DNA of 64,000 nt from Halorubrum salinum (GTDB lineage: Archaea > Halobacteriota > Halobacteria > Halobacteriales > Haloferacaceae). Below, piece by piece: positions 8,749 through 19,673 of the stretch. The stretch's first letter is position 1. The number at the start of each line of letters is the position of its first letter. A program made the position numbers and the translations under genes. The notes beneath the pieces were generated by a model, which was not told where the DNA came from, did no database searches, and saw only the letters and a program-made list of their open reading frames with translations. Location of the stretch: assembly GCF_024494575.1 (NCBI RefSeq), contig NZ_JANHDO010000001.1:1-64000 (forward strand). The letters run 5' to 3'.

Positions 8749-8807
8749 AGTGACTTCTCCGATCAATCGGTGACTTCTCCGATCAATCGGTGACTTCTCC
8801 GATCATC
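8749..8807 (-). repeat. Tandem 20-bp repeat copying the 3' end of the minus-strand gene
   Basis: Three copies of GGTGACTTCTCCGATCAATC (first base variable; last copy lacks one A) run across 8750-8807. The copy at 8789-8807 is coding and encodes the IGEVT end of the upstream protein. The other two extend past its TGA stop (8785-8783) and repeat the stop 20 nt further on, in another frame. Confidence 0.85.
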
Positions 8808-9697
8808 GAGTCGAACGTCTTCTCTGCCCACTTCACCGCGTACGACGCCCCGCGGTCACGGTACGCCGAGGTGTCGAGCGCGGCGAACGGTGCGGGGAGA
8901 TCTAGGCCGTGTCGGACCGCTGAGCACGCGTACTCGGTCGCGCTCGCGAAGTCGGTCTCGCCGCGGGCGACTTCCGCGGGGAGATCTCCGAGACGTCCGT
9001 CGAGGCGATCGCCGGCGTCGGTCCACGCCTCGAACAGCCGGGAGACGGCGGGACCTCGGAGGTGAGAGGCGGCCGGCTCGGCGTCAGACAGGTCTCTCCA
9101 CGAGGCGAAGACGTCTCGCGTGTGGAGTCCGACCCACGCGTCGAACAGCGCAGTCGCTATCTGAAAGACGTCGGTCGGAGTCTGTCCGGTCGTCGACGCT
9201 CCCGTCTCTGGGTCCGGACGGCGTATCGCGGCGTCGAGATCGCGGTACCGGTCGGCGAAGAACGGGAGGAAACTCTCCGGGAGGTGAGTCGACGGCGTCG
9301 CGTCAGGGAGCGCCCCCGGCGCGGGATCGGCCCCGATCTGGACCAGCCGATCGGCGATCAGGAACGCGAGGAAGTCGTCTGGGGTCCCCTCCGCGCGAGC
9401 CTTGACGAGCACCGCCTGAGGGTCCGTCTGGGTGGTTCGGACGACGGTTCCGCCGCCGGGGAGTCCGACGGTGAAGGTTGGGCCCGCGTACGTTCGAAGT
9501 AGCTCTGGGACTTCTGACGGGAGCCACTCGGACGGAAACGACGCCGGGGCGAGTCCGTCGACGAACAGTCCGAGATCTTCCGCCGCGGCGGGCGGGAGGG
9601 TCTCGAAGTCGGTGTCGACATCGAGGACCGGTGAGTCGGGTGCGTACTGATCCCGGACCGCGTCGAGGTCGTCGTCGAGCGGGCGGGAGGAGAACAT
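8783..9697 (-). CDS. Haloarchaeal conserved protein, function unknown
   Basis: 304 residues from the ATG at 9697. The open frame continues far upstream, but that part is Arg/Pro-rich antisense-like sequence. The start is fixed by the TGATG overlap with the tiny ORF upstream. The protein is acidic and mostly helical. It has a conserved-looking GPTFTVGLPGGGTVVRTTQ strand region (about residues 73-92), a DDFLAFLIADRLVQIG helix and a C-terminal SYAVKWAEKTFDSMIGEV helix. No catalytic motif, membrane segment or metal site is seen. I do not recognise the family. Confidence 0.6.
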   Translation of the reverse strand: MFSSRPLDDDLDAVRDQYAPDSPVLDVDTDFETLPPAAAEDLGLFVDGLAPASFPSEWLPSEVPELLRTYAGPTFTVGLPGGGTVVRTTQTDPQAVLVKARAEGTPDDFLAFLIADRLVQIGADPAPGALPDATPSTHLPESFLPFFADRYRDLDAAIRRPDPETGASTTGQTPTDVFQIATALFDAWVGLHTRDVFASWRDLSDAEPAASHLRGPAVSRLFEAWTDAGDRLDGRLGDLPAEVARGETDFASATEYACSAVRHGLDLPAPFAALDTSAYRDRGASYAVKWAEKTFDSMIGEVTD

Positions 9698-9786
9698 CAA
9701 CCGAAGACGTACGAGAGGACGATGAGAACGGACACGACGGCCGAAACGCTGATCGTACCGAACACGATCTGAGTTGGTTTGTTCAT
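9697..9786 (-). CDS. 29-residue single-pass membrane protein, coupled
   Basis: This small ORF (MNKPTQIVFGTISVSAVVSV...YVFG) starts at the ATG at 9786 and stops with TGA at 9699-9697, sharing one base with the ATG of the 304-residue gene (TGATG). Residues 7-27 form a single hydrophobic helix after a short polar N-terminus. The tight coupling and clean hydrophobic profile argue for a real gene. The role may be membrane anchoring or assembly of its partner, which is speculative. It is too short for most gene finders. Confidence 0.6.
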   Translation of the reverse strand: MNKPTQIVFGTISVSAVVSVLIVLSYVFG

Positions 9787-9963
9787 GTCTCCCGTCGGGC
9801 ATCCCATCGCTTAAATCCATCTCACTCGGTTCGTGACGACTGGATCGTAGCGCCGGGCCGCCGGCCGTCACAGACGCCGTGTCGTCACGCGGTTGGTCGG
9901 TCTGTTGCAGGCCGGGTTTTGTTGCAGGCTGGGTTTTATACGAACACTCGATGAACTCACGGT
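9787..9963. other. Divergent intergenic region
   Basis: 177 bp between the tiny membrane ORF (minus) and the GNAT-like gene (plus). A near-direct repeat GTTGCAGGC(C/T)GGGTTTTGTTGCAG lies at about 9903-9935. The AT-rich GGTTTTATACGAAC (about 9932-9945) is a likely TATA box for the plus-strand gene at 9964 and would give a leaderless transcript. I see no gene in it. Confidence 0.45.
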
Positions 9964-10455
9964 ATGCGGATTCGCGACGCACTGGAGGCCGATAGCGGGG
10001 CCATAGCCGCGGCGACTGATCGACCGCGGAGCGTCGTGATCGACACGATCCACGAGCGCTCCGTTCGGGTCGCGGTCGCGGAGACGGACGAGGAGTGGTC
10101 GGGATCAAACGGCGATCGATGGGAAGAACACGGCGGCCCGAAGGAGATCGAGAGTGACGCTGGCGGCGACCGCGTGATCGGGTTCGTCGCGTTCGACGCG
10201 CGCGGCGACACGGTTCACGTGAGTGACTTCGCAGGGGAGGACGCGGTGGTTCGTCGGTTGCTCGACACGCCCCTCCGGTTCGCGGCCCGAGAGAGAATGT
10301 CTCTCGAAGTGGTCGTACCGACCGACGATGACAGACCGGTGTTATCGGAGATGGGGTTCGAGGCCATCGGATCCGGGCCGCGGTTCCGCGGGCGAGAGAC
10401 GACTCGGTACCGGATCGACGCCGACGACGTCGACATGGACATCGATACAAGATAG
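9964..10455 (+). CDS. GNAT-like acetyltransferase domain protein
   Basis: 163 residues. The N-terminus MRIRDALEADSGAIAAA is the usual GNAT beta1-alpha1 entry. A central strand DRVIGFVAFDARGDTVHVSDF is followed by AVVRRLLDTPLRFAARERM and a C-terminal strand pair with PVLSEMGFEAIGSGPRFRG, similar to the GNAT beta5-beta7 region. An acidic disordered insertion (residues about 43-66) interrupts beta2-beta3. The acetyl-CoA Q/RxxGxG/A loop is not clear, so the protein could be inactive or divergent. The substrate is unknown. Confidence 0.55.
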   Translation: MRIRDALEADSGAIAAATDRPRSVVIDTIHERSVRVAVAETDEEWSGSNGDRWEEHGGPKEIESDAGGDRVIGFVAFDARGDTVHVSDFAGEDAVVRRLLDTPLRFAARERMSLEVVVPTDDDRPVLSEMGFEAIGSGPRFRGRETTRYRIDADDVDMDIDTR

Positions 10456-12067: not shown

Positions 12068-12763
12068 TTACTCGTCGTCGATTCCCCACGCGTCGGGCAT
12101 CTCGATGACGTATCGACCGTCCTCTTGGAGAGAAATGATGTATTCTTGACGGTCGTACAGTTCCATCAAATTGAGCTCGTACTGTCCCGGACTCACGATG
12201 CGAATGCTTTCGAACTGCTCGTTGAGTTCCTCGCGAAGGTTGTCGATATCCGGGCGGGACTCCGCGGGTACGTCGGAAGCGTACTCCTCCGGAGGCGGGC
12301 CGTCGGATCCCGACGAGTCGGTGACGTCGCGGCTTGCTCGGTCCAGTTCGTCGGGCGAGACGACGTCGGAACGAGCGCTCGCCTGAGCGGTGTCCTCCTC
12401 GCTGCGTCCGCGAACCTGCTCGGAATCGGCACCAGACCGCGACGACGAGGGATCAGAGGGAGAGGACGGGTCCGGAGCAGACGACGAGTCCGAAGCAGAC
12501 GATGGATCCGAGGCAGACGACTGAGATGATTCAGAAGTCGGCTGGGCGGGACCTGTCGGCTCGTCCGGTTGGGTCGCCTCGCTCGATCCGCTCATCTTGT
12601 CGGCTCTCGTCGGTCGTTCTCGATCAGGCGTGGAGCCGTCAGAAGACGAGGCGCTCTCGGGTTTGAACTGGAATTTGTTGCCACCACAGTCCGGACAGCC
12701 GGAGAGCATCTCTTTGGATCCGTCGGGAAACGTCCGGCCGCAGGTGGTACATTGGTGTGGCAT
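12068..12763 (-). CDS. oapC: Zinc-ribbon protein of the OapC/ArvC family
   Basis: 231 residues. An N-terminal zinc ribbon (CTTCGRTF, then CPDCGG; cysteines at residues 5, 8, 23, 26) is followed by a long Ser/Asp/Pro-rich linker (about 35-165) and a C-terminal folded domain (SIRIVSPGQYELNLMELYDRQEYIISLQEDGRYVIEMP). This is the architecture of origin-associated protein OapC, also called ArvC, encoded beside the origin with OapA/B in haloarchaea. The family is linked to extracellular vesicle formation through the GTPase ArvA. It is third in the set after a 192-bp repeat-rich gap, so it may have its own promoter. Confidence 0.8.
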   Translation of the reverse strand: MPHQCTTCGRTFPDGSKEMLSGCPDCGGNKFQFKPESASSSDGSTPDRERPTRADKMSGSSEATQPDEPTGPAQPTSESSQSSASDPSSASDSSSAPDPSSPSDPSSSRSGADSEQVRGRSEEDTAQASARSDVVSPDELDRASRDVTDSSGSDGPPPEEYASDVPAESRPDIDNLREELNEQFESIRIVSPGQYELNLMELYDRQEYIISLQEDGRYVIEMPDAWGIDDE

Positions 12764-12955
12764 TTATATTGGTGAATGTCGGCTGAGGTGATTTCGAGCG
12801 CGTGGGCGTCGGTTTCGAGCGCGCGTGAGTGGTTGCATTGACCGGATGGGTTGAATGGTTGGTTGACCGGGTGGCGTTAGGTATGTGACGTCGTGGGGTG
12901 TGTTACGTCGTGGGGTGTGTTACGTCGTGGGGTGTGTTACGTCGTGGGTATGCCA
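12764..12955. repeat. Repeat-filled gap between arvB and arvC, with 17-bp tandem array
   Basis: The array at 12886-12952 consists of about four units of TTACGTCGTGGGGTGTG. Its TTA triplets (12903, 12920, 12937) read TAA on the minus strand and, with the true arvB stop at 12956-12958, place stops in all three frames. The rest of the gap has a duplicated TTTCGAGCGCG (about 12790-12822) and a duplicated TTGACCGG(A/G)TGG. No promoter is obvious. Confidence 0.8.
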
Positions 12956-13393
12956 TTATTTCCGTGAGACCAACGTGCTGATGAGGTTCTCGTCTTTGTG
13001 CAGCGTCTCGATGCGGTTGGCCGGGCCGATGACGGTGAGCTTCTGTGCCGATTCACGGCCCATCAGTTTGTCGAGGAAGCTCTGGTCGCTCGCCTCGGCT
13101 TTTGGATAGGTCTCGATCTCGATTCCGGTGAAGTCGTCGGGGCTGATCTCGGTCATCGTCACCTCGATCAGCTTGGATTCCTCGTCCGGAGAGAGGCCTT
13201 CCTCCAAGATGACGATGTTGCCGTCGCGGACGCCGTCGAGGATGAGGCGGATCTTCTCCATGCTGGTGAGCCCCTGCATTCGAGCCCCGCTTATCATGTC
13301 GATACGGACGCCGCTGTCCGACGACTCCCCGTCGGACACGGGATCGTCGGAGGGAGCGTCACCACCGTCGACGTTGGGGGTAGGTTCAGGCAT
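12956..13393 (-). CDS. oapB: OapB/ArvB family protein (DUF2073)
   Basis: 145 residues: a disordered acidic N-terminus (1-28), then a compact domain. Conserved segments are RIDMISGARMQGLTSMEKIRLI, DGNIVILEEGLSPDEESKLIEVTM and the C-terminal SAQKLTVIGPANRIETLHKDEN. This is the DUF2073 pattern found next to the Era-like GTPase OapA/ArvA. Its ATG shares a base with the arvA stop (TGATG at 13393), so the two are translationally coupled, suggesting a complex. Biochemical function is unknown. The family is implicated with ArvA in vesicle formation. Confidence 0.85.
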   Translation of the reverse strand: MPEPTPNVDGGDAPSDDPVSDGESSDSGVRIDMISGARMQGLTSMEKIRLILDGVRDGNIVILEEGLSPDEESKLIEVTMTEISPDDFTGIEIETYPKAEASDQSFLDKLMGRESAQKLTVIGPANRIETLHKDENLISTLVSRK

Positions 13394-14034
13394 CAGCCGA
13401 AGTACTCCGCGATCTTCGTATACACTTCGTCCATGTTTTCGCCTTCGAGCGCCGACAGCGGGATCGTCTCGTGTTGCGGGAAGGCGTTCGCGATCTGTTT
13501 GACGTCTGAGTCGGGGAGATCCGTCTTGTTGGCGAGGATCAGCGCCGGCAAGTCCTGTGACTCGATGATCCCGATGAGCATCGTGTTTACCTGCGTGAAC
13601 GGATCGGTCGTGGAGTCGAGGACGTAGATGACACCGTCTACGTCTTCACGCAGCCAGTGCATCGCCTCGGCGACGCCCTCCGTGGCCTCGCGAGAGCGGC
13701 GGACAGCGTCGTCTTTGTCCATGTCGTGGTCGAGAAACTCCTTGTAATCCACCTTCGTCGTCACGCCCGGGGTGTCGACGATGTCGATCGTGACCTTCCG
13801 ACCGTTCCGCTCGATTTCGACGTTCTCCTTGCGGCGGGCGCGTCGGGTCTCGTGTGGAATGTGGCTCTCTGGTCCGACGGCGTCTCCAGTCCAATCACGC
13901 GCGATCCGGTTTGCGAGGGTCGTCTTCCCGGCGTTCGGCGGTCCGTAGATCCCGATCCGCTTGGGCTCTTCGGCCGCGAACAACCCGTCCGTGACCCGTG
14001 ATATGCTGTCTTTGAGATTCGTTAGCAGTCCCAT
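13393..14034 (-). CDS. oapA: Era-like small GTPase OapA/ArvA
   Basis: 213 residues with all G motifs: G1 GPPNAGKT (residues 31-38), G3 DTPG (about 86-89), G4 NKTD (about 172-175) and G5 SAL (near 195). The N-terminal amphipathic segment MGLLTNLKDSISRVTDGLF could touch membrane. It belongs to the archaeal small GTPase now called ArvA, reported to drive extracellular vesicle production in haloarchaea and long known as origin-associated protein OapA. It is first gene of the set and is transcribed away from the origin. Its promoter should lie in the 14035-14100 region. Confidence 0.88.
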   Translation of the reverse strand: MGLLTNLKDSISRVTDGLFAAEEPKRIGIYGPPNAGKTTLANRIARDWTGDAVGPESHIPHETRRARRKENVEIERNGRKVTIDIVDTPGVTTKVDYKEFLDHDMDKDDAVRRSREATEGVAEAMHWLREDVDGVIYVLDSTTDPFTQVNTMLIGIIESQDLPALILANKTDLPDSDVKQIANAFPQHETIPLSALEGENMDEVYTKIAEYFG

Positions 14035-14325
14035 CCTGACCTCCAGATTCTGTGTTCTCTCCCAAACGCTTCGTGCCGCGTGGTATCGCTCGGTACTGTG
14101 TACCTGCCGGCAGTTCGGGGAATTGTCGTAGAATCCACGCCCCTCTCACTTAACAACTGCGTCAGACACACCGATGGGGTCGATAGACGGCCGACTGTTG
14201 GCGGCGTCACCGTAGTCAGACGAGAGTCGTTCGGTCAGTCTGCATGTGGAATGGTAGAACGCACCATGAGTACGTTGATCATACAACCTCGACCCGTAGC
14301 GTCCGTTCCAGCTGTATCGTCTCCC

Positions 14326-14355
14326 TCCCCCACCCCTTCGTTTCGACTGGAAACG
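14326..14355 (-). promoter_or_regulatory. Origin recognition box 1
   Basis: Read on the minus strand the core is TCCAGTCGAAACGAAGGGGT, followed by a G-rich tail (GGGGG). It matches the haloarchaeal ORB layout: a TTCCA...CGAAACGAAGGGGTG core with a G-string. The G-rich tail points away from the AT-rich segment. It should bind the adjacent Orc1/Cdc6. Confidence 0.85.
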
Positions 14356-14387
14356 TGATTAGGAGGGTGACACCGCGAGCGGGTTAC

Positions 14388-14500
14388 TTTTCATCTCTTC
14401 TCAATCAGTTAAATAATAGAAAGACGATCACACAATATATTGATCTAGCGTACCGAGGGTACTGTTACATAGTATAGTATATAAAACCATCCGGTTCAGG
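14388..14500. other. AT-rich duplex unwinding element
   Basis: This segment is strikingly AT-rich against the GC-rich surroundings. It contains CAGTTAAATAATAGAAAG, CACAATATATTGATC and ACATAGTATAGTATATAAAA, and lies exactly between the two inverted origin boxes. That is the expected position of the unwinding element. TATA-like strings in it could also serve as promoters. Confidence 0.8.
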
Positions 14501-14532
14501 ATCCGAGTTTTACCCCACCCCTCCATATCCGA

Positions 14533-14561
14533 GTTCCACCCGAAACGAAGGGGTGTGGGGG
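14533..14561 (+). promoter_or_regulatory. Origin recognition box 2
   Basis: The core is TTCCACCCGAAACGAAGGGG, followed by TGTGGGGG. It has the same core as box 1 in opposite orientation, with its G-rich tail pointing right, away from the AT-rich segment. The last bases of its tail run directly into the 14-bp tandem array. Confidence 0.85.
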
Positions 14562-14628
14562 TACACATCACCGGGTACACATCACCGGGTACACATCACC
14601 GGGTACACATCACCGGGTACACATCACC
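14559..14628 (+). repeat. Five perfect 14-bp tandem repeats in the origin
   Basis: GGGTACACATCACC is repeated five times without mismatch over 70 bp, beginning in the G-tail of origin box 2. It could be an iteron-like binding site or a slippage product. The absence of any mismatch suggests recent expansion. Confidence 0.95.
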
Positions 14629-14958
14629 GACGACTACTGATGTTACGTGGTATCAGCACAAACTGGTACCAACGGACGGCCGCTTCTCTGATATGCCAAC
14701 ACTCACCGCGATATTCCCGTTGTCACCATCAAAGCGCATCCGCTTCTATCACCCCGATACATCCGTCTGAAACGCGGTTGAGACTCCGGGTACGACAGTC
14801 CACGCTGTGGATAGGCTATTGATCACACGTCACATAACACGGTATAACACCTCACGCTGTGAGTAGCTCCGTCTGACTCTGTTCTGTCTCTGTTCTGTCT
14901 GTCTCTGTTTCGGGTTCGGACTGATCTCCGGCTCGGGCTTAGACCCGGATCCGGCTCC

Positions 14959-15009
14959 GCAGCGGATGACGTATCGCAGCGGATGACGTATCGCAGCGGA
15001 TGACGTATT
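14959..15009 (+). repeat. Three 17-bp tandem repeats upstream of orc1
   Basis: GCAGCGGATGACGTATC occurs three times head to tail (last base of copy 3 differs), about 190 bp before the orc1 ATG. Each copy has a TGACGTA core. Possible operator for orc1 or auxiliary origin element. Confidence 0.9.
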
Positions 15010-15020
15010 CGTCTGCCAGG

Positions 15021-15042
15021 CTCCGTCGTTTCGGGTCTGGAG
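15021..15042 (-). promoter_or_regulatory. Degenerate origin-box-like sequence
   Basis: On the minus strand this reads CCAGACCCGAAACGACGGAG (15040-15021). It shares ACCCGAAACGA and the following purines with origin box 2 but lacks the G-rich tail. It may be a mini-ORB used for Orc1 autoregulation, or chance. Confidence 0.45.
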
Positions 15043-15193
15043 AGCAACACTTTTGTGCCACCTATTCGTCTGGTTCGACTGCATCAACTGGACACATTGA
15101 ACGAACGCAATCGTTGAATGTCGAGGTCTCAACGCAGTACACAGCACACTTCATCCGCGCGTGCGGATCTTCCACCTGAAATAGGGGGGTTAC

Positions 15194-16957
15194 ATGGACG
15201 AAGACGAACATACACCGCAGGCGGGCGAACCGGGAGACGACGACCAGTCCAGCGAGGAATCTTCCGAGACGGGGGAGGAACCCACCACCGGCCCTGCCGA
15301 ATCGTTGTCTCCGTCGTCCCCGACACGTTCCCGGTCTACCGACGAGACATCTCCGTCACCCACTGATTCCGAGCCAGATCGCGACCCCGACGCGCCTGCC
15401 GATTCCACCTCGAACGAGTCTCCTTCGGCCACCCCCGCTTCGAGCGTTCCGGATGGCGTCTCTTCTGGCACGACGAGCACCACGGACGGCGACATCGACG
15501 TCGGCAGCGGCGGCAGGGACAGGTCGTCGCCGGACGTCGACTTCGACGGTGTCGTCCTTGACGAGGAAGAGGACAATCAGGGGCTGTTCGACGACCTCCT
15601 CTCGGGTGAGCCCATCTTCGAGAACAAGGAGGTGCTTCGCCCCTCGTACACCCCGCACGAACTGCCTCATCGGAACGATCAGATCAATCGGATGGCGACC
15701 ATCCTCGTCTCTGCCCTCCGCGGTGAAACGCCGTCTAACATTCTCATTTACGGCAAGACGGGCACCGGAAAAACGGCGTCCGCGAAGTTCGTCTCACAGG
15801 AACTCGAATCGACGTCACAGAAGTACGACGTCCCGTGTGAAGTCGAGTATATCAACTGCGAGGTGACAGACACCCAGTATCGCGTGCTGGCCCAGCTCGC
15901 GAACACCTTCATCGAAAAGAACCAGCAGGTCATCTCCGACCGGCTGGACCGGCTCAGGGACCTCCGTACTGCGGCCGACGACGACCCCCGGACGCTCTCG
16001 GAGACGGAGTTTTCGACCATCGACGATCTCGATGCCCGCATCGCGGAGCTCGAATCCGACGCCGACGAGATGGAGGAAGTCCCGATGACCGGCTGGCCGA
16101 CAGACCGCGTCTACTCCACGTTCTTCGAGGCCGTGGACTACCACGAGCGCGTGGTCGTGATCATGCTCGACGAGATCGACAAGCTCGTCGAAAAGAGCGG
16201 CGATGACACGCTGTATAATCTCTCCCGGATGAACTCCGAACTCGACCGCTCGCGCATCTCTATCATGGGAATCTCAAACGACCTGAAGTTCACCGACTTC
16301 CTCGACCCACGGGTCAAATCGAGTCTCGGTGAAGAAGAGATAGTCTTCCCGCCGTACGACGCGAATCAGCTCAGAGACATTCTCCAGCACCGCGCCGACA
16401 TCTCGTTCAAACAGGACGCGCTCACCGACGACGTGATCCCCCTGTGTGCGGCCTTCGCCGCTCAGGAACACGGTGACGCCCGGCGCGCGCTCGACCTTCT
16501 CCGCACCGCCGGCGAACTCGCCGAACGCTCGCAGGCCGAAGTCGTCGCCGAAACTCACGTGCGGCAGGCACAGGACAAGATCGAACTAGACCGCGTCGTC
16601 GAAGTCGTCCGGACGCTCCCAACACAGAGCAAGATCGTCTTGTTCGCTGTTATCCTCCTCGAAAAGAACGGTGTCCACAACATCAACACCGGTGAGGTAT
16701 TCAACATCTACAAGCGACTGTGCGAGGAGATAGACGCCGACGTCCTCACCCAGCGCCGCGTCACCGACCTCATCAGCGAACTCGACATGCTCGGCATCGT
16801 CAACGCCGTCGTCGTCTCGAAGGGTCGCTACGGCCGAACCAAGGAGATGGGACTCTCGGTTCCAGTCGAAGAGACGGAGGCGGTCCTCCTTTCGGACTCG
16901 CGGCTCGGCGACATCGAAAACGCTCAGCCGTTCGTTCAGGCTCGGTTCGACAACTGA
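15194..16957 (+). CDS. orc1: Orc1/Cdc6 family replication initiator
   Basis: 587 residues, longer than the roughly 400 of many Cdc6 proteins because of a disordered Ser/Asp/Glu-rich N-terminus (residues 1 to about 125). The AAA+ core follows: Walker A GKTGTGKT (about 187-194), Walker B MLDEID (about 324-329), sensor 1 SIMGISNDLKF, and the initiator-specific region with DFLDPRVKSSLGEEEIVFPPY. The C-terminal winged helix (about 480-587, RVTDLISELDMLGIVNAVV) recognises origin boxes. It is transcribed away from the adjacent origin, as is typical for the initiator cognate to that origin. Confidence 0.96.
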   Translation: MDEDEHTPQAGEPGDDDQSSEESSETGEEPTTGPAESLSPSSPTRSRSTDETSPSPTDSEPDRDPDAPADSTSNESPSATPASSVPDGVSSGTTSTTDGDIDVGSGGRDRSSPDVDFDGVVLDEEEDNQGLFDDLLSGEPIFENKEVLRPSYTPHELPHRNDQINRMATILVSALRGETPSNILIYGKTGTGKTASAKFVSQELESTSQKYDVPCEVEYINCEVTDTQYRVLAQLANTFIEKNQQVISDRLDRLRDLRTAADDDPRTLSETEFSTIDDLDARIAELESDADEMEEVPMTGWPTDRVYSTFFEAVDYHERVVVIMLDEIDKLVEKSGDDTLYNLSRMNSELDRSRISIMGISNDLKFTDFLDPRVKSSLGEEEIVFPPYDANQLRDILQHRADISFKQDALTDDVIPLCAAFAAQEHGDARRALDLLRTAGELAERSQAEVVAETHVRQAQDKIELDRVVEVVRTLPTQSKIVLFAVILLEKNGVHNINTGEVFNIYKRLCEEIDADVLTQRRVTDLISELDMLGIVNAVVVSKGRYGRTKEMGLSVPVEETEAVLLSDSRLGDIENAQPFVQARFDN

Positions 16958-17009: not shown

Positions 17010-17921
17010 TTACCCGGCGACCGCGTCGATCGCGTCTCTCGGCTCCGCTTTCCCCGTGGCGACCAACCGGACGTATCCGAGGTAGGGGACGCGAACCCGA
17101 GCGACACCGGTCACCCAGTCGCGCTTGACCGGCTCGGCGATCCCCCGCGCTTGATCGTAGACACCGTTGTTATCGCCGAGCGTGATGTAGCCGCCGTGCG
17201 GGGCGGGACAGTTGCGGAGGTCGCTGCAGCTCTCGGCGCTGTGATACGCGCTGTCGGCCCTATCGTACCAGTTCTCGCCCTCCTCTACGTGAAACATCGC
17301 CCGGTGGATGATCGGCGAGGCCGTCCGCCCCGGCGGCTGGTAGATCACCACCGATCCGTAGGAGCCGAACGTCCGGTAGTCGACCCGTTCGCCGACGTCG
17401 TGCGTCACGACGCCGGTCTCGTCATCTGCGGCGTCGGGCGCGAGCCGACCTGGCTCCGTGACGAACACCAGATCGCCGACTTCCATGTTCGGCTCCATAC
17501 TTCCGGATTCGACGGCGACCATCGGCGGCCACACCCCACTGACACCGAAGAGAAGCAATCCGACCGCGAGCACGATCGCGACGCTTGAGAGTATCTCCCG
17601 AATCCACATCAGCGCGCCCTCTCTGTCGTGTCGGAACCGATCCCACAGCCCCCGATCCGACTCTACTCCGTCTCCATCGGACTGCGTCGCCCCCCTGTGA
17701 TCCGTCCAGTCGGACGGGTCCGAGGATCTATCCCCCCCTATCGCGCCGTCGCGCTCTCCCCCTCCGACATCCTCCGACGACTCGTCACTCTCCAACGACT
17801 CGTCACTCTCTCCCGGCTTGCCGACCTCTCCCGGCTTGTCGACCTCTCCCGGATCGTCGCCCCCCGGATCGGTTCCGTCGGAGCGTCCTTCGTCCGACCC
17901 CGTCCGATCCCCTTCGTCCAT
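17010..17921 (-). CDS. Signal peptidase I, archaeal/ER Sec11 type
   Basis: 303 residues. A long acidic disordered N-terminus (1 to about 90) precedes one membrane helix (about 108-130, ILSSVAIVLAVGLLLFGVSG). The catalytic Ser141 is in VESGSMEPNMEVGD. Box D carries a His instead of bacterial Lys (SPIIHRAMF) and box E is GDNNGVYDQ, giving the Ser-His-Asp arrangement of Sec11. It cleaves signal peptides from Sec-exported proteins. It is divergent from polB, with 93 bp shared upstream. Confidence 0.9.
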   Translation of the reverse strand: MDEGDRTGSDEGRSDGTDPGGDDPGEVDKPGEVGKPGESDESLESDESSEDVGGGERDGAIGGDRSSDPSDWTDHRGATQSDGDGVESDRGLWDRFRHDREGALMWIREILSSVAIVLAVGLLLFGVSGVWPPMVAVESGSMEPNMEVGDLVFVTEPGRLAPDAADDETGVVTHDVGERVDYRTFGSYGSVVIYQPPGRTASPIIHRAMFHVEEGENWYDRADSAYHSAESCSDLRNCPAPHGGYITLGDNNGVYDQARGIAEPVKRDWVTGVARVRVPYLGYVRLVATGKAEPRDAIDAVAG

Positions 17922-18014
17922 TGCAGTCAGGTTGCGGGGTTTCGGTCATAAGCTTCCGGGTCCGCTCCGATCGGTCCCGGAACCGTTTTGAGCGGTACTC
18001 CCCTTTCGGTCTCT

Positions 18015-19673
18015 GTGCCGCTGGAGTCCAACGCTCGTATCGTCAGGGAGCTGGCCAACCGGGGATATAACGCCGAACGTGAGGCAGTCACCCTGTTGGC
18101 AAACGAGTCCGACCCCGAAGCCGCCATCGACGCCGCCGTCGACACGGCTCCCGACGACGCCCTCCGAATCACCGCGGATCACGTCCGGGCAACCGCCGAC
18201 GATCGGTCTCTCGACCCGTCCGACGCGTCTCTCGACTCGATCGACGCGTCTCCCGACTCGACCGACTCAGGTGAGAAATCCCCCACGCAGAACCCCAACT
18301 CCTCCACTGACGCTGCCGCCTCGCCCGACCGATCTCCAGTCGAAACGGAGGGGTCTGTCACAGGACAGCCCCGGAACGAGGACGCCACCCAACGGTCACG
18401 TTCGGGAGAGGAGTCGTCTGCGGTAGCGTCGTCCGACTCTTCGGCTCGCTCCCCGGGCGAATCCGCCCAGCGTGAGATCTCGGTCGGAAACGACATGACC
18501 GGACACAGCACCGGGACGGGCGAGTACGCGGACTTCGTCCGAACCTTCAGAGACCGCTACGAGCGGCTCTCGAAGCTGCTCCGCGGACGCGTCAATCACC
18601 GACCCGCCGAAGCCATCGCGGACATGCCGGGCGGGAGCGACGCCGCGATGATCGGATTAGTCAACGACGTCCGCTCGACGAAGTCCGGACACTGGCTCGT
18701 CGAACTGGAGGACACGACGGGGACGTTCCCGGCGCTGATCATGAAAGACAGGGGGCTCGCCGACGTCGTCGACGAGATTCTCATGGACGAGTGTCTCGCG
18801 GTAGAAGGGACGCTCGCCGACGACTCCGGCATCCTGTTCGCCGACTCGCTTCACTTTCCCGACGTTCCCCGGACTCATCAGACCGGCGCGGCCGACCGCC
18901 ACGTACAGGCCGCGCTCATCTCCGACGTCCACGTCGGCAGCGACGAGTTCATGGCCGACGCCTGGAGCCGGTTCACCGACTGGCTCCACACTCCCGAAGC
19001 GGAGCCCGTCGAGTACATCCTTCTCGCCGGCGACATGGTCGAGGGCGTCGGTGTCTATCCCAACCAGGACGAGGAACTGGAGATCGTCGACATCTACGAA
19101 CAGTACGAGGCGTTCGCGGAACACCTCAAGGAAGTGCCCGGGGACACGGAGATCGTGATGATCCCGGGCAACCACGACGCCGTCCGGCTCGCGGAGCCGC
19201 AGCCGGGGTTCAACGACGAAATCCGCTCGATCATGGACGTCCACGACGCGCGGATCGTCTCGAATCCGGCCACAGTCTCCGTCGAGGGCGTCGACGTGTT
19301 GATGTACCACGGCGTCTCACTCGACGAGGTGATCGCGGAGTTACCCGAGGAGAAAGCGAGCTACGACGAGCCGCACAAGGCGATGTATCAACTACTCAAA
19401 AAGCGACACGTCGCCCCGCAGTTCGGCGGGCACACCCGCGTTGCACCCGAGGAACGAGATTACCTCGTCATCGACGACGTTCCGGACGTGTTCCACACCG
19501 GTCACGTCCACAAGCTCGGCTGGGGGAAGTACCACAACGTCCTCGCGGTCAACTCCGGCTGCTGGCAGGCACAGACCGATTTCCAGAAATCCGTCAACAT
19601 CGACCCCGACGCCGGGTACGCTCCCATTCTCGATCTCGACACCCTCGATATGACGGTCCGGAAGTTCACGTAG
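18015..19673 (+). CDS. polB: DNA polymerase D small subunit DP1 (exonuclease)
   Basis: 552 residues from the GTG at 18015 (reads MPLESNARIVRELANRGYN); a TTG 27 nt upstream is less likely. The N-terminal helical domain (1-60) is followed by a Ser/Asp-rich linker (about 60-160), an OB-fold (about 210-290) and a calcineurin-like phosphoesterase domain with SDVHVGSD (near 301), GDMVEG (near 338), GNHD (near 385) and GHVHK toward the C-terminus. DP1 gives proofreading and binds the catalytic DP2. The linker region contains an origin-box-like DNA sequence at 18334-18359. Confidence 0.94.
   Translation: MPLESNARIVRELANRGYNAEREAVTLLANESDPEAAIDAAVDTAPDDALRITADHVRATADDRSLDPSDASLDSIDASPDSTDSGEKSPTQNPNSSTDAAASPDRSPVETEGSVTGQPRNEDATQRSRSGEESSAVASSDSSARSPGESAQREISVGNDMTGHSTGTGEYADFVRTFRDRYERLSKLLRGRVNHRPAEAIADMPGGSDAAMIGLVNDVRSTKSGHWLVELEDTTGTFPALIMKDRGLADVVDEILMDECLAVEGTLADDSGILFADSLHFPDVPRTHQTGAADRHVQAALISDVHVGSDEFMADAWSRFTDWLHTPEAEPVEYILLAGDMVEGVGVYPNQDEELEIVDIYEQYEAFAEHLKEVPGDTEIVMIPGNHDAVRLAEPQPGFNDEIRSIMDVHDARIVSNPATVSVEGVDVLMYHGVSLDEVIAELPEEKASYDEPHKAMYQLLKKRHVAPQFGGHTRVAPEERDYLVIDDVPDVFHTGHVHKLGWGKYHNVLAVNSGCWQAQTDFQKSVNIDPDAGYAPILDLDTLDMTVRKFT
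18334..18359 (+). other. Origin-box-like sequence inside polB
   Basis: CTCCAGTCGAAACGGAGGGG matches origin box 1 (TCCAGTCGAAACGAAGGGGT) at 19 of 20 positions over TCCAGTCGAAACG-R-AGGGGT. The G-rich tail is absent. It lies in the codons for the disordered linker of DP1, where protein sequence constrains DNA little. Confidence 0.5.

Follow-up and report, generated by a model that had tools for sequence, protein, structure and literature searches.

Why does an operon reported to act in the formation of extracellular vesicles lie beside the replication origin of a haloarchaeon, and does that position matter? In the window, by which we mean the whole 64,000-nucleotide stretch of Halorubrum salinum DNA analyzed here, three such genes leave one side of an intergenic gap and orc1 leaves the other. 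The neighborhood of this origin, the gene order and the vesicle roles of ArvA, ArvB and ArvC are already published. To this we add how far the linkage extends, its count over 70 genera, and the lineages in which it has been lost.

The origin and the operon in the window

The features on which the analysis rests are the following; ORB stands for origin recognition box.

12068..12763, minus strand: oapC / arvC; Pfam PF09845 (7.4e-30), zinc ribbon at the N-terminus (CTTC...CPDC)
12956..13393, minus strand: oapB / arvB; Pfam PF09846, formerly DUF2073 (7.3e-43)
13393..14034, minus strand: oapA / arvA, single-domain small GTPase; MMR_HSR1, PF01926 (1.5e-13); P-loop GPPNAGKT, DTPG and NKTD motifs
14035..15193, no strand: oriC1-type origin region between divergent oapA and orc1; ORB pair, AT-rich center, GC-skew switch
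14321..14353, minus strand: left ORB with G-string; core GAAACGAAGGGG at 14333-14344; 46.1 bits
14385..14484, no strand: AT-rich stretch, likely unwinding element; 30-32% GC
14531..14562, plus strand: right ORB with G-string; core GAAACGAAGGGG at 14542-14553; 45.6 bits
14559..14628, no strand: five copies of the 14-bp repeat GGGTACACATCACC
14958..15008, no strand: three copies of the 17-bp repeat CGCAGCGGATGACGTAT
15016..15036, minus strand: degenerate ORB-like element (ACCCGAAACGACGGAGCC), in inverted repeat with the plus-strand ORB (81%), under the matrix threshold
15194..16957, plus strand: orc1/cdc6 initiator; Cdc6_C (1.1e-30), NCBIfam ORC1-type equivalog (1.3e-195)
17010..17921, minus strand: archaeal signal peptidase-like gene, same conserved block; TIGR02228 (3.5e-14)
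17988..19673, plus strand: PolD small subunit DP1, same conserved block; NF003116 (3.5e-295)

Pfam and NCBIfam matches bear out the gene identities, coordinates, orientations and family names given in a preliminary description of this DNA. The gene strands likewise confirm its picture of oap genes leaving the origin with Orc1 on the far side: the three oap genes all leave the 1159-bp gap on its left and orc1 leaves it on its right. The GTPase (PF01926), OapB (PF09846) and OapC (PF09845) follow each other on one strand, as in the published ArvABC/OapABC layout, with oapB and oapA joined at position 13393 and a single copy of oapB in the genome. The Pfam title of both PF09846 and PF09845 is "origin-associated protein". 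By eye, the interval 12885-12955 between oapC and oapB holds short direct repeats of GTTACGTCGTGGGGTGT. An in-frame intein of about 470 aa interrupts OapA in two other genomes (L264:4871-6916 in G046 and L028:7286-9331 in G254), with matches to Intein_splicing (1.8e-24) and LAGLIDADG_3 (1.1e-24). It sits in the Walker A loop, where GPPNAGK is followed by the intein (CLAEGEDV...VVHN) and then by TTLANR; G045, of the same genus, has an OapA lacking it.

That an origin lies between the oap genes and orc1 had been proposed already, and the structure of the gap identifies its type. It holds an inverted ORB pair with G-string around an AT-rich center and adjoins a divergent orc1 of the oriC1 type, and GC skew changes sign there, from about +0.06 on the left to -0.12 on the right within the window. 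The ORBs were scored with a matrix of 100 haloarchaeal ORBs that includes the left ORB of the window itself (consensus GTTCCACnnGAAACGAAGGGGTGGGGGGGT), and the only other match in the whole window reaches 16 bits, at 18342. By structure, then, the gap is a standard haloarchaeal oriC1-type origin and, on the same grounds, is predicted to be the main origin (oriC1) of a haloarchaeal chromosome.

This arrangement has close published counterparts. In the oriC1 region of Haloferax volcanii (orc1 HVO_0001; oapA/B/C HVO_3014/3013/3012; Wolters et al. 2019, as cited in later papers), the genes, their order and their divergence are those of the window, and nothing essential differs beyond the species and the intergenic repeats. 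The work on H. gibbonsii, which cites Wolters et al. 2019, describes a major origin flanked by orc1 and, across from it on the opposite strand, by oapABC (PMC7921747). Sequenced haloarchaea were found to share a block of genes for a GTP-binding protein, ORBs, cdc6, a signal peptidase and a polymerase (gbp-ori-cdc6-sec-pol; PMC4010727, Fig. 2). The window shares the inverted ORBs with G-string and all four genes of this block, to which we add the count over 70 genera and the lineages without linkage.

The vesicle role that the preliminary description gave to ArvA is published for H. volcanii: deletion of OapA (ArvA) lowers vesicle yield 2.9-fold and overexpression increases it 3.5-fold, deletion of ArvB gives a vesicle-defective strain, and deletion of ArvC causes over-vesiculation (PMC10927574). 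The window shares with that operon the order of GTPase, DUF2073 and zinc-ribbon genes; the function was shown in H. volcanii and is a predicted one for the operon of the window.

Conservation and loss of the linkage

OapB was found in all 292 Halobacteria genomes. To count the linkage we used one genome per genus from 70 haloarchaeal genera in 11 families, with the window as an extra, in stretches of mostly 14-15 kb. In 60 of the 70 genera orc1 stands head-to-head with oapA on one contig. Six more have the two genes at opposite ends of the same contig, as expected of a circle opened at the origin. One genus (G043) is locally rearranged, with the parts within about 6 kb and the ORB pair remaining by oapA instead of orc1. 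The last three are separated, with oapABC about 100 kb away (G020), about 440 kb away (G002) or on another contig (G254). With 66 of 70 genera linked, a quirk of a single genus is ruled out, and the comparison of gene order proposed in the preliminary description thus yields a class-wide linkage.

The origin itself accompanies the gene pair. An inverted ORB pair, with a spacing of 188-518 bp (median 258 bp), lies in 58 of 63 oapA-orc1 gaps, that of the window included. Of 49 further genomes, sampled independently, 45 have the ORB no more than 3.5 kb upstream of OapB, and one other, G013, has it across the contig ends. Other members of the block are retained in similar numbers: among 72 haloarchaeal stretches, the signal peptidase is kept in 60, DP1 in 56 and orc1 in 63. 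The first two thus match orc1 closely in frequency, and oapABC does not stand out. Against this, the linkage of oapA and orc1 (about 94% of genera) is more persistent than that of the next genes beyond oapABC, so some local selection may act on the position of oapABC. Among the genes near the origin is one for a DUF7089 protein (8783-10450 of the window, minus strand, 3.4e-115; function unassigned), which is found in 45 of the 72 stretches. Two assemblies carry two near-identical oapABC-origin-orc1 blocks each (L035 and L036 in G264, L148 and L149 in G116), by duplication or assembly artifact.

The linkage had been called fixed. Its class-wide reach stands; its fixity does not, as one genus that we examined across species (g40) and two others have broken it, and it is looser in five members of the genus to which the window belongs. 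In all seven species of g40 that we checked (material L261, L262 and L263; genomes G175, G251, G278 and G283, and also G254), oapABC, the oriC1-type orc1 and the ORB pair are at three separate places, which in the draft genomes G254 and G283 means separate contigs. G175, for example, has its ORBs at 755 kb, with orc1 following at 990 kb and OapB at 1121 kb. Where both are on one contig (five genomes of g40), oapABC is about 40-370 kb from the ORB pair, hence proximity to the origin is only partly lost. As the ORB pair stands apart from both orc1 and oapABC, the usual linkage of origin and initiator is lost in this genus. No orc gene adjoins the ORB site in the three species where we inspected it, and hemL-like and carbonic anhydrase genes flank it in two of them. 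Natrinema J7 is described as having predicted origins that lack an adjoining cdc6 gene, and one of these origins can replicate a plasmid (PMC5350488); they may be related to this case.

In the window's genus, the oapA start is about 8-12 kb from the ORB pair in G006, G009, G015 and G027, with the ORBs still by orc1, and no ORB was found within about 9 kb of oapA in G038. Unrelated genes, one amidohydrolase-like by eye, lie between oapA and the ORBs in L266, L267, L268 and L274. In every broken or loosened case in g40 and in the window's genus oapA, oapB and oapC stay together, and in lineages with a loosened or broken linkage the ORB pair has mostly remained with orc1. The linkage of oapABC and orc1 is therefore a near-universal haloarchaeal trait that is capable of loss.

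The operon outside haloarchaea

OapB was detected in 235 of 247 genomes sampled across the phylum, and 40 genomes of non-haloarchaeal Halobacteriota have an intact oapA-oapB pair, most of them with a detected oapC. In these 40, we found no oriC1-type ORB in the 2.5 kb upstream of oapA and no close relative of orc1 in the stretch carrying the operon. G299 has a distant Orc1-family match, which lies beyond OapB in the direction of oapC, at a distance of about 6 kb. The presence of the operon in relatives with no oriC1-type origin alongside indicates that it is older than its position at the origin. A linkage that is class-wide in haloarchaea and not found in these 40 relatives is thus a haloarchaeal trait.

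A further 80 named loci include four haloarchaea (two Halorarius, Actinarchaeum and Halosegnis), all with orc1 nearby. Among the non-haloarchaeal loci, only Candidatus Methanoperedens Fe_173 has an Orc1-family gene nearby, and it is a distant one (L239:5117-6956), head-to-head with oapA across a 73 bp gap and of 25% identity. We considered it as an origin-linked exception and treat it as a coincidence, given the low identity of the gene and a gap with no room for an origin. A linkage ancient in Archaea is unsupported in the 40 other Halobacteriota genomes and in about 75 named loci of methanogens and related organisms, many of them on short contigs.

Does the position at the origin matter?

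We consider it likely, with a probability of roughly 78%, that the arrangement reflects an oriC1 gene order passed down by descent, and that the vesicle operon next to the origin functions independently of it. Orc1 made from the rightward gene would bind the two inverted ORBs, upon which the AT-rich stretch would open, while the leftward operon would supply ArvA, ArvB and ArvC (OapA, OapB and OapC), which make or limit extracellular vesicles in Haloferax. The operon probably took up its place at oriC1 in one event on the haloarchaeal stem; a single gain there is the simplest reading of the gene orders, given that relatives retain the operon with no oriC1-type origin alongside. It would later have been carried along with the conserved block oapCBA-ori-orc1-signal peptidase-DP1, which was probably kept by selection on the origin, the initiator and co-directional transcription. 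Nothing in this reading requires vesicle formation to be coupled to replication.

The preliminary description had raised such a coupling as one possibility, in which proximity to oriC1 gives growing cells more copies of arvABC and vesicle output tracks growth. The near-universal linkage speaks for this idea, early replication has been proposed as an advantage for other genes around oriC1 (PMC4441112), and OapA overexpression increases vesicle yield 3.5-fold. Even in g40, where it could be measured, oapABC is still within about 40-370 kb of the ORB pair. However, H. volcanii gives its highest vesicle output in early stationary phase, and output at 45 C is 2.7-fold below that at 28 C, that is, lower at the temperature of faster growth. 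This is the opposite of what simple growth-linked dosage predicts and leaves the idea with little support. The oapA deletion strain grows slightly faster (PMC10927574), H. volcanii is highly polyploid, with about 20 genome copies, and several lineages have broken or stretched the linkage while the operon itself is intact. Growth coupling by dosage is therefore unsupported, and we consider it unlikely. A broader version, in which the position at oriC1 matters for haloarchaeal vesicles through copy number, fork passage or Orc1 in the shared gap, and in which the lineages that lost the linkage compensate, appears to us quite unlikely.

Another explanation is a shared regulatory region, in which Orc1 bound at the left ORB also controls the oapA promoter and the vesicle genes track the level of the initiator. 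A single gap is common to oapA and orc1, and the left ORB is about 290 bp from the oapA start. Against this, the gap is long, inspection by eye found no convincing oapA promoter in it, and five relatives within the window's genus have oapA some 8-12 kb or more from the ORBs, with other genes in between where these were read, so we regard such control as very unlikely.

The possibility also raised earlier that ArvA, ArvB or ArvC works at the origin, of which a tethering of oriC1 to the membrane would be one form, is the most improbable: the genomic position and the zinc ribbon of ArvC could fit it, but the operon lacks an adjoining oriC1-type origin in all 40 non-haloarchaeal genomes. OapA was initially believed to influence replication, but a mutant study is reported to have assigned it no distinct function there, and vesicle phenotypes are reported for all three genes (PMC10927574). 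The analysis itself gave no positive indication of an origin role. The low-confidence predicted model of OapB (pLDDT 69.5) might also be read in its favor, as its best structural match is the membrane adaptor SepF (6sat, Z 6.6, rmsd 2.9, 79 aligned). The match is weak and tied, with SpoVS-, IF3- and Alba-like chains within about 1 Z, and the model resembles the nucleic-acid-binding IF3 and Alba folds about equally.

Inherited synteny thus remains our preferred reading. The vesicle operon and the origin were each known from publications; these results put the one at the other and turn an anecdotal linkage into a count. With the natural losses of linkage described here and the existing origin-deletion strains of Haloferax, the question of dosage would be easy to settle.
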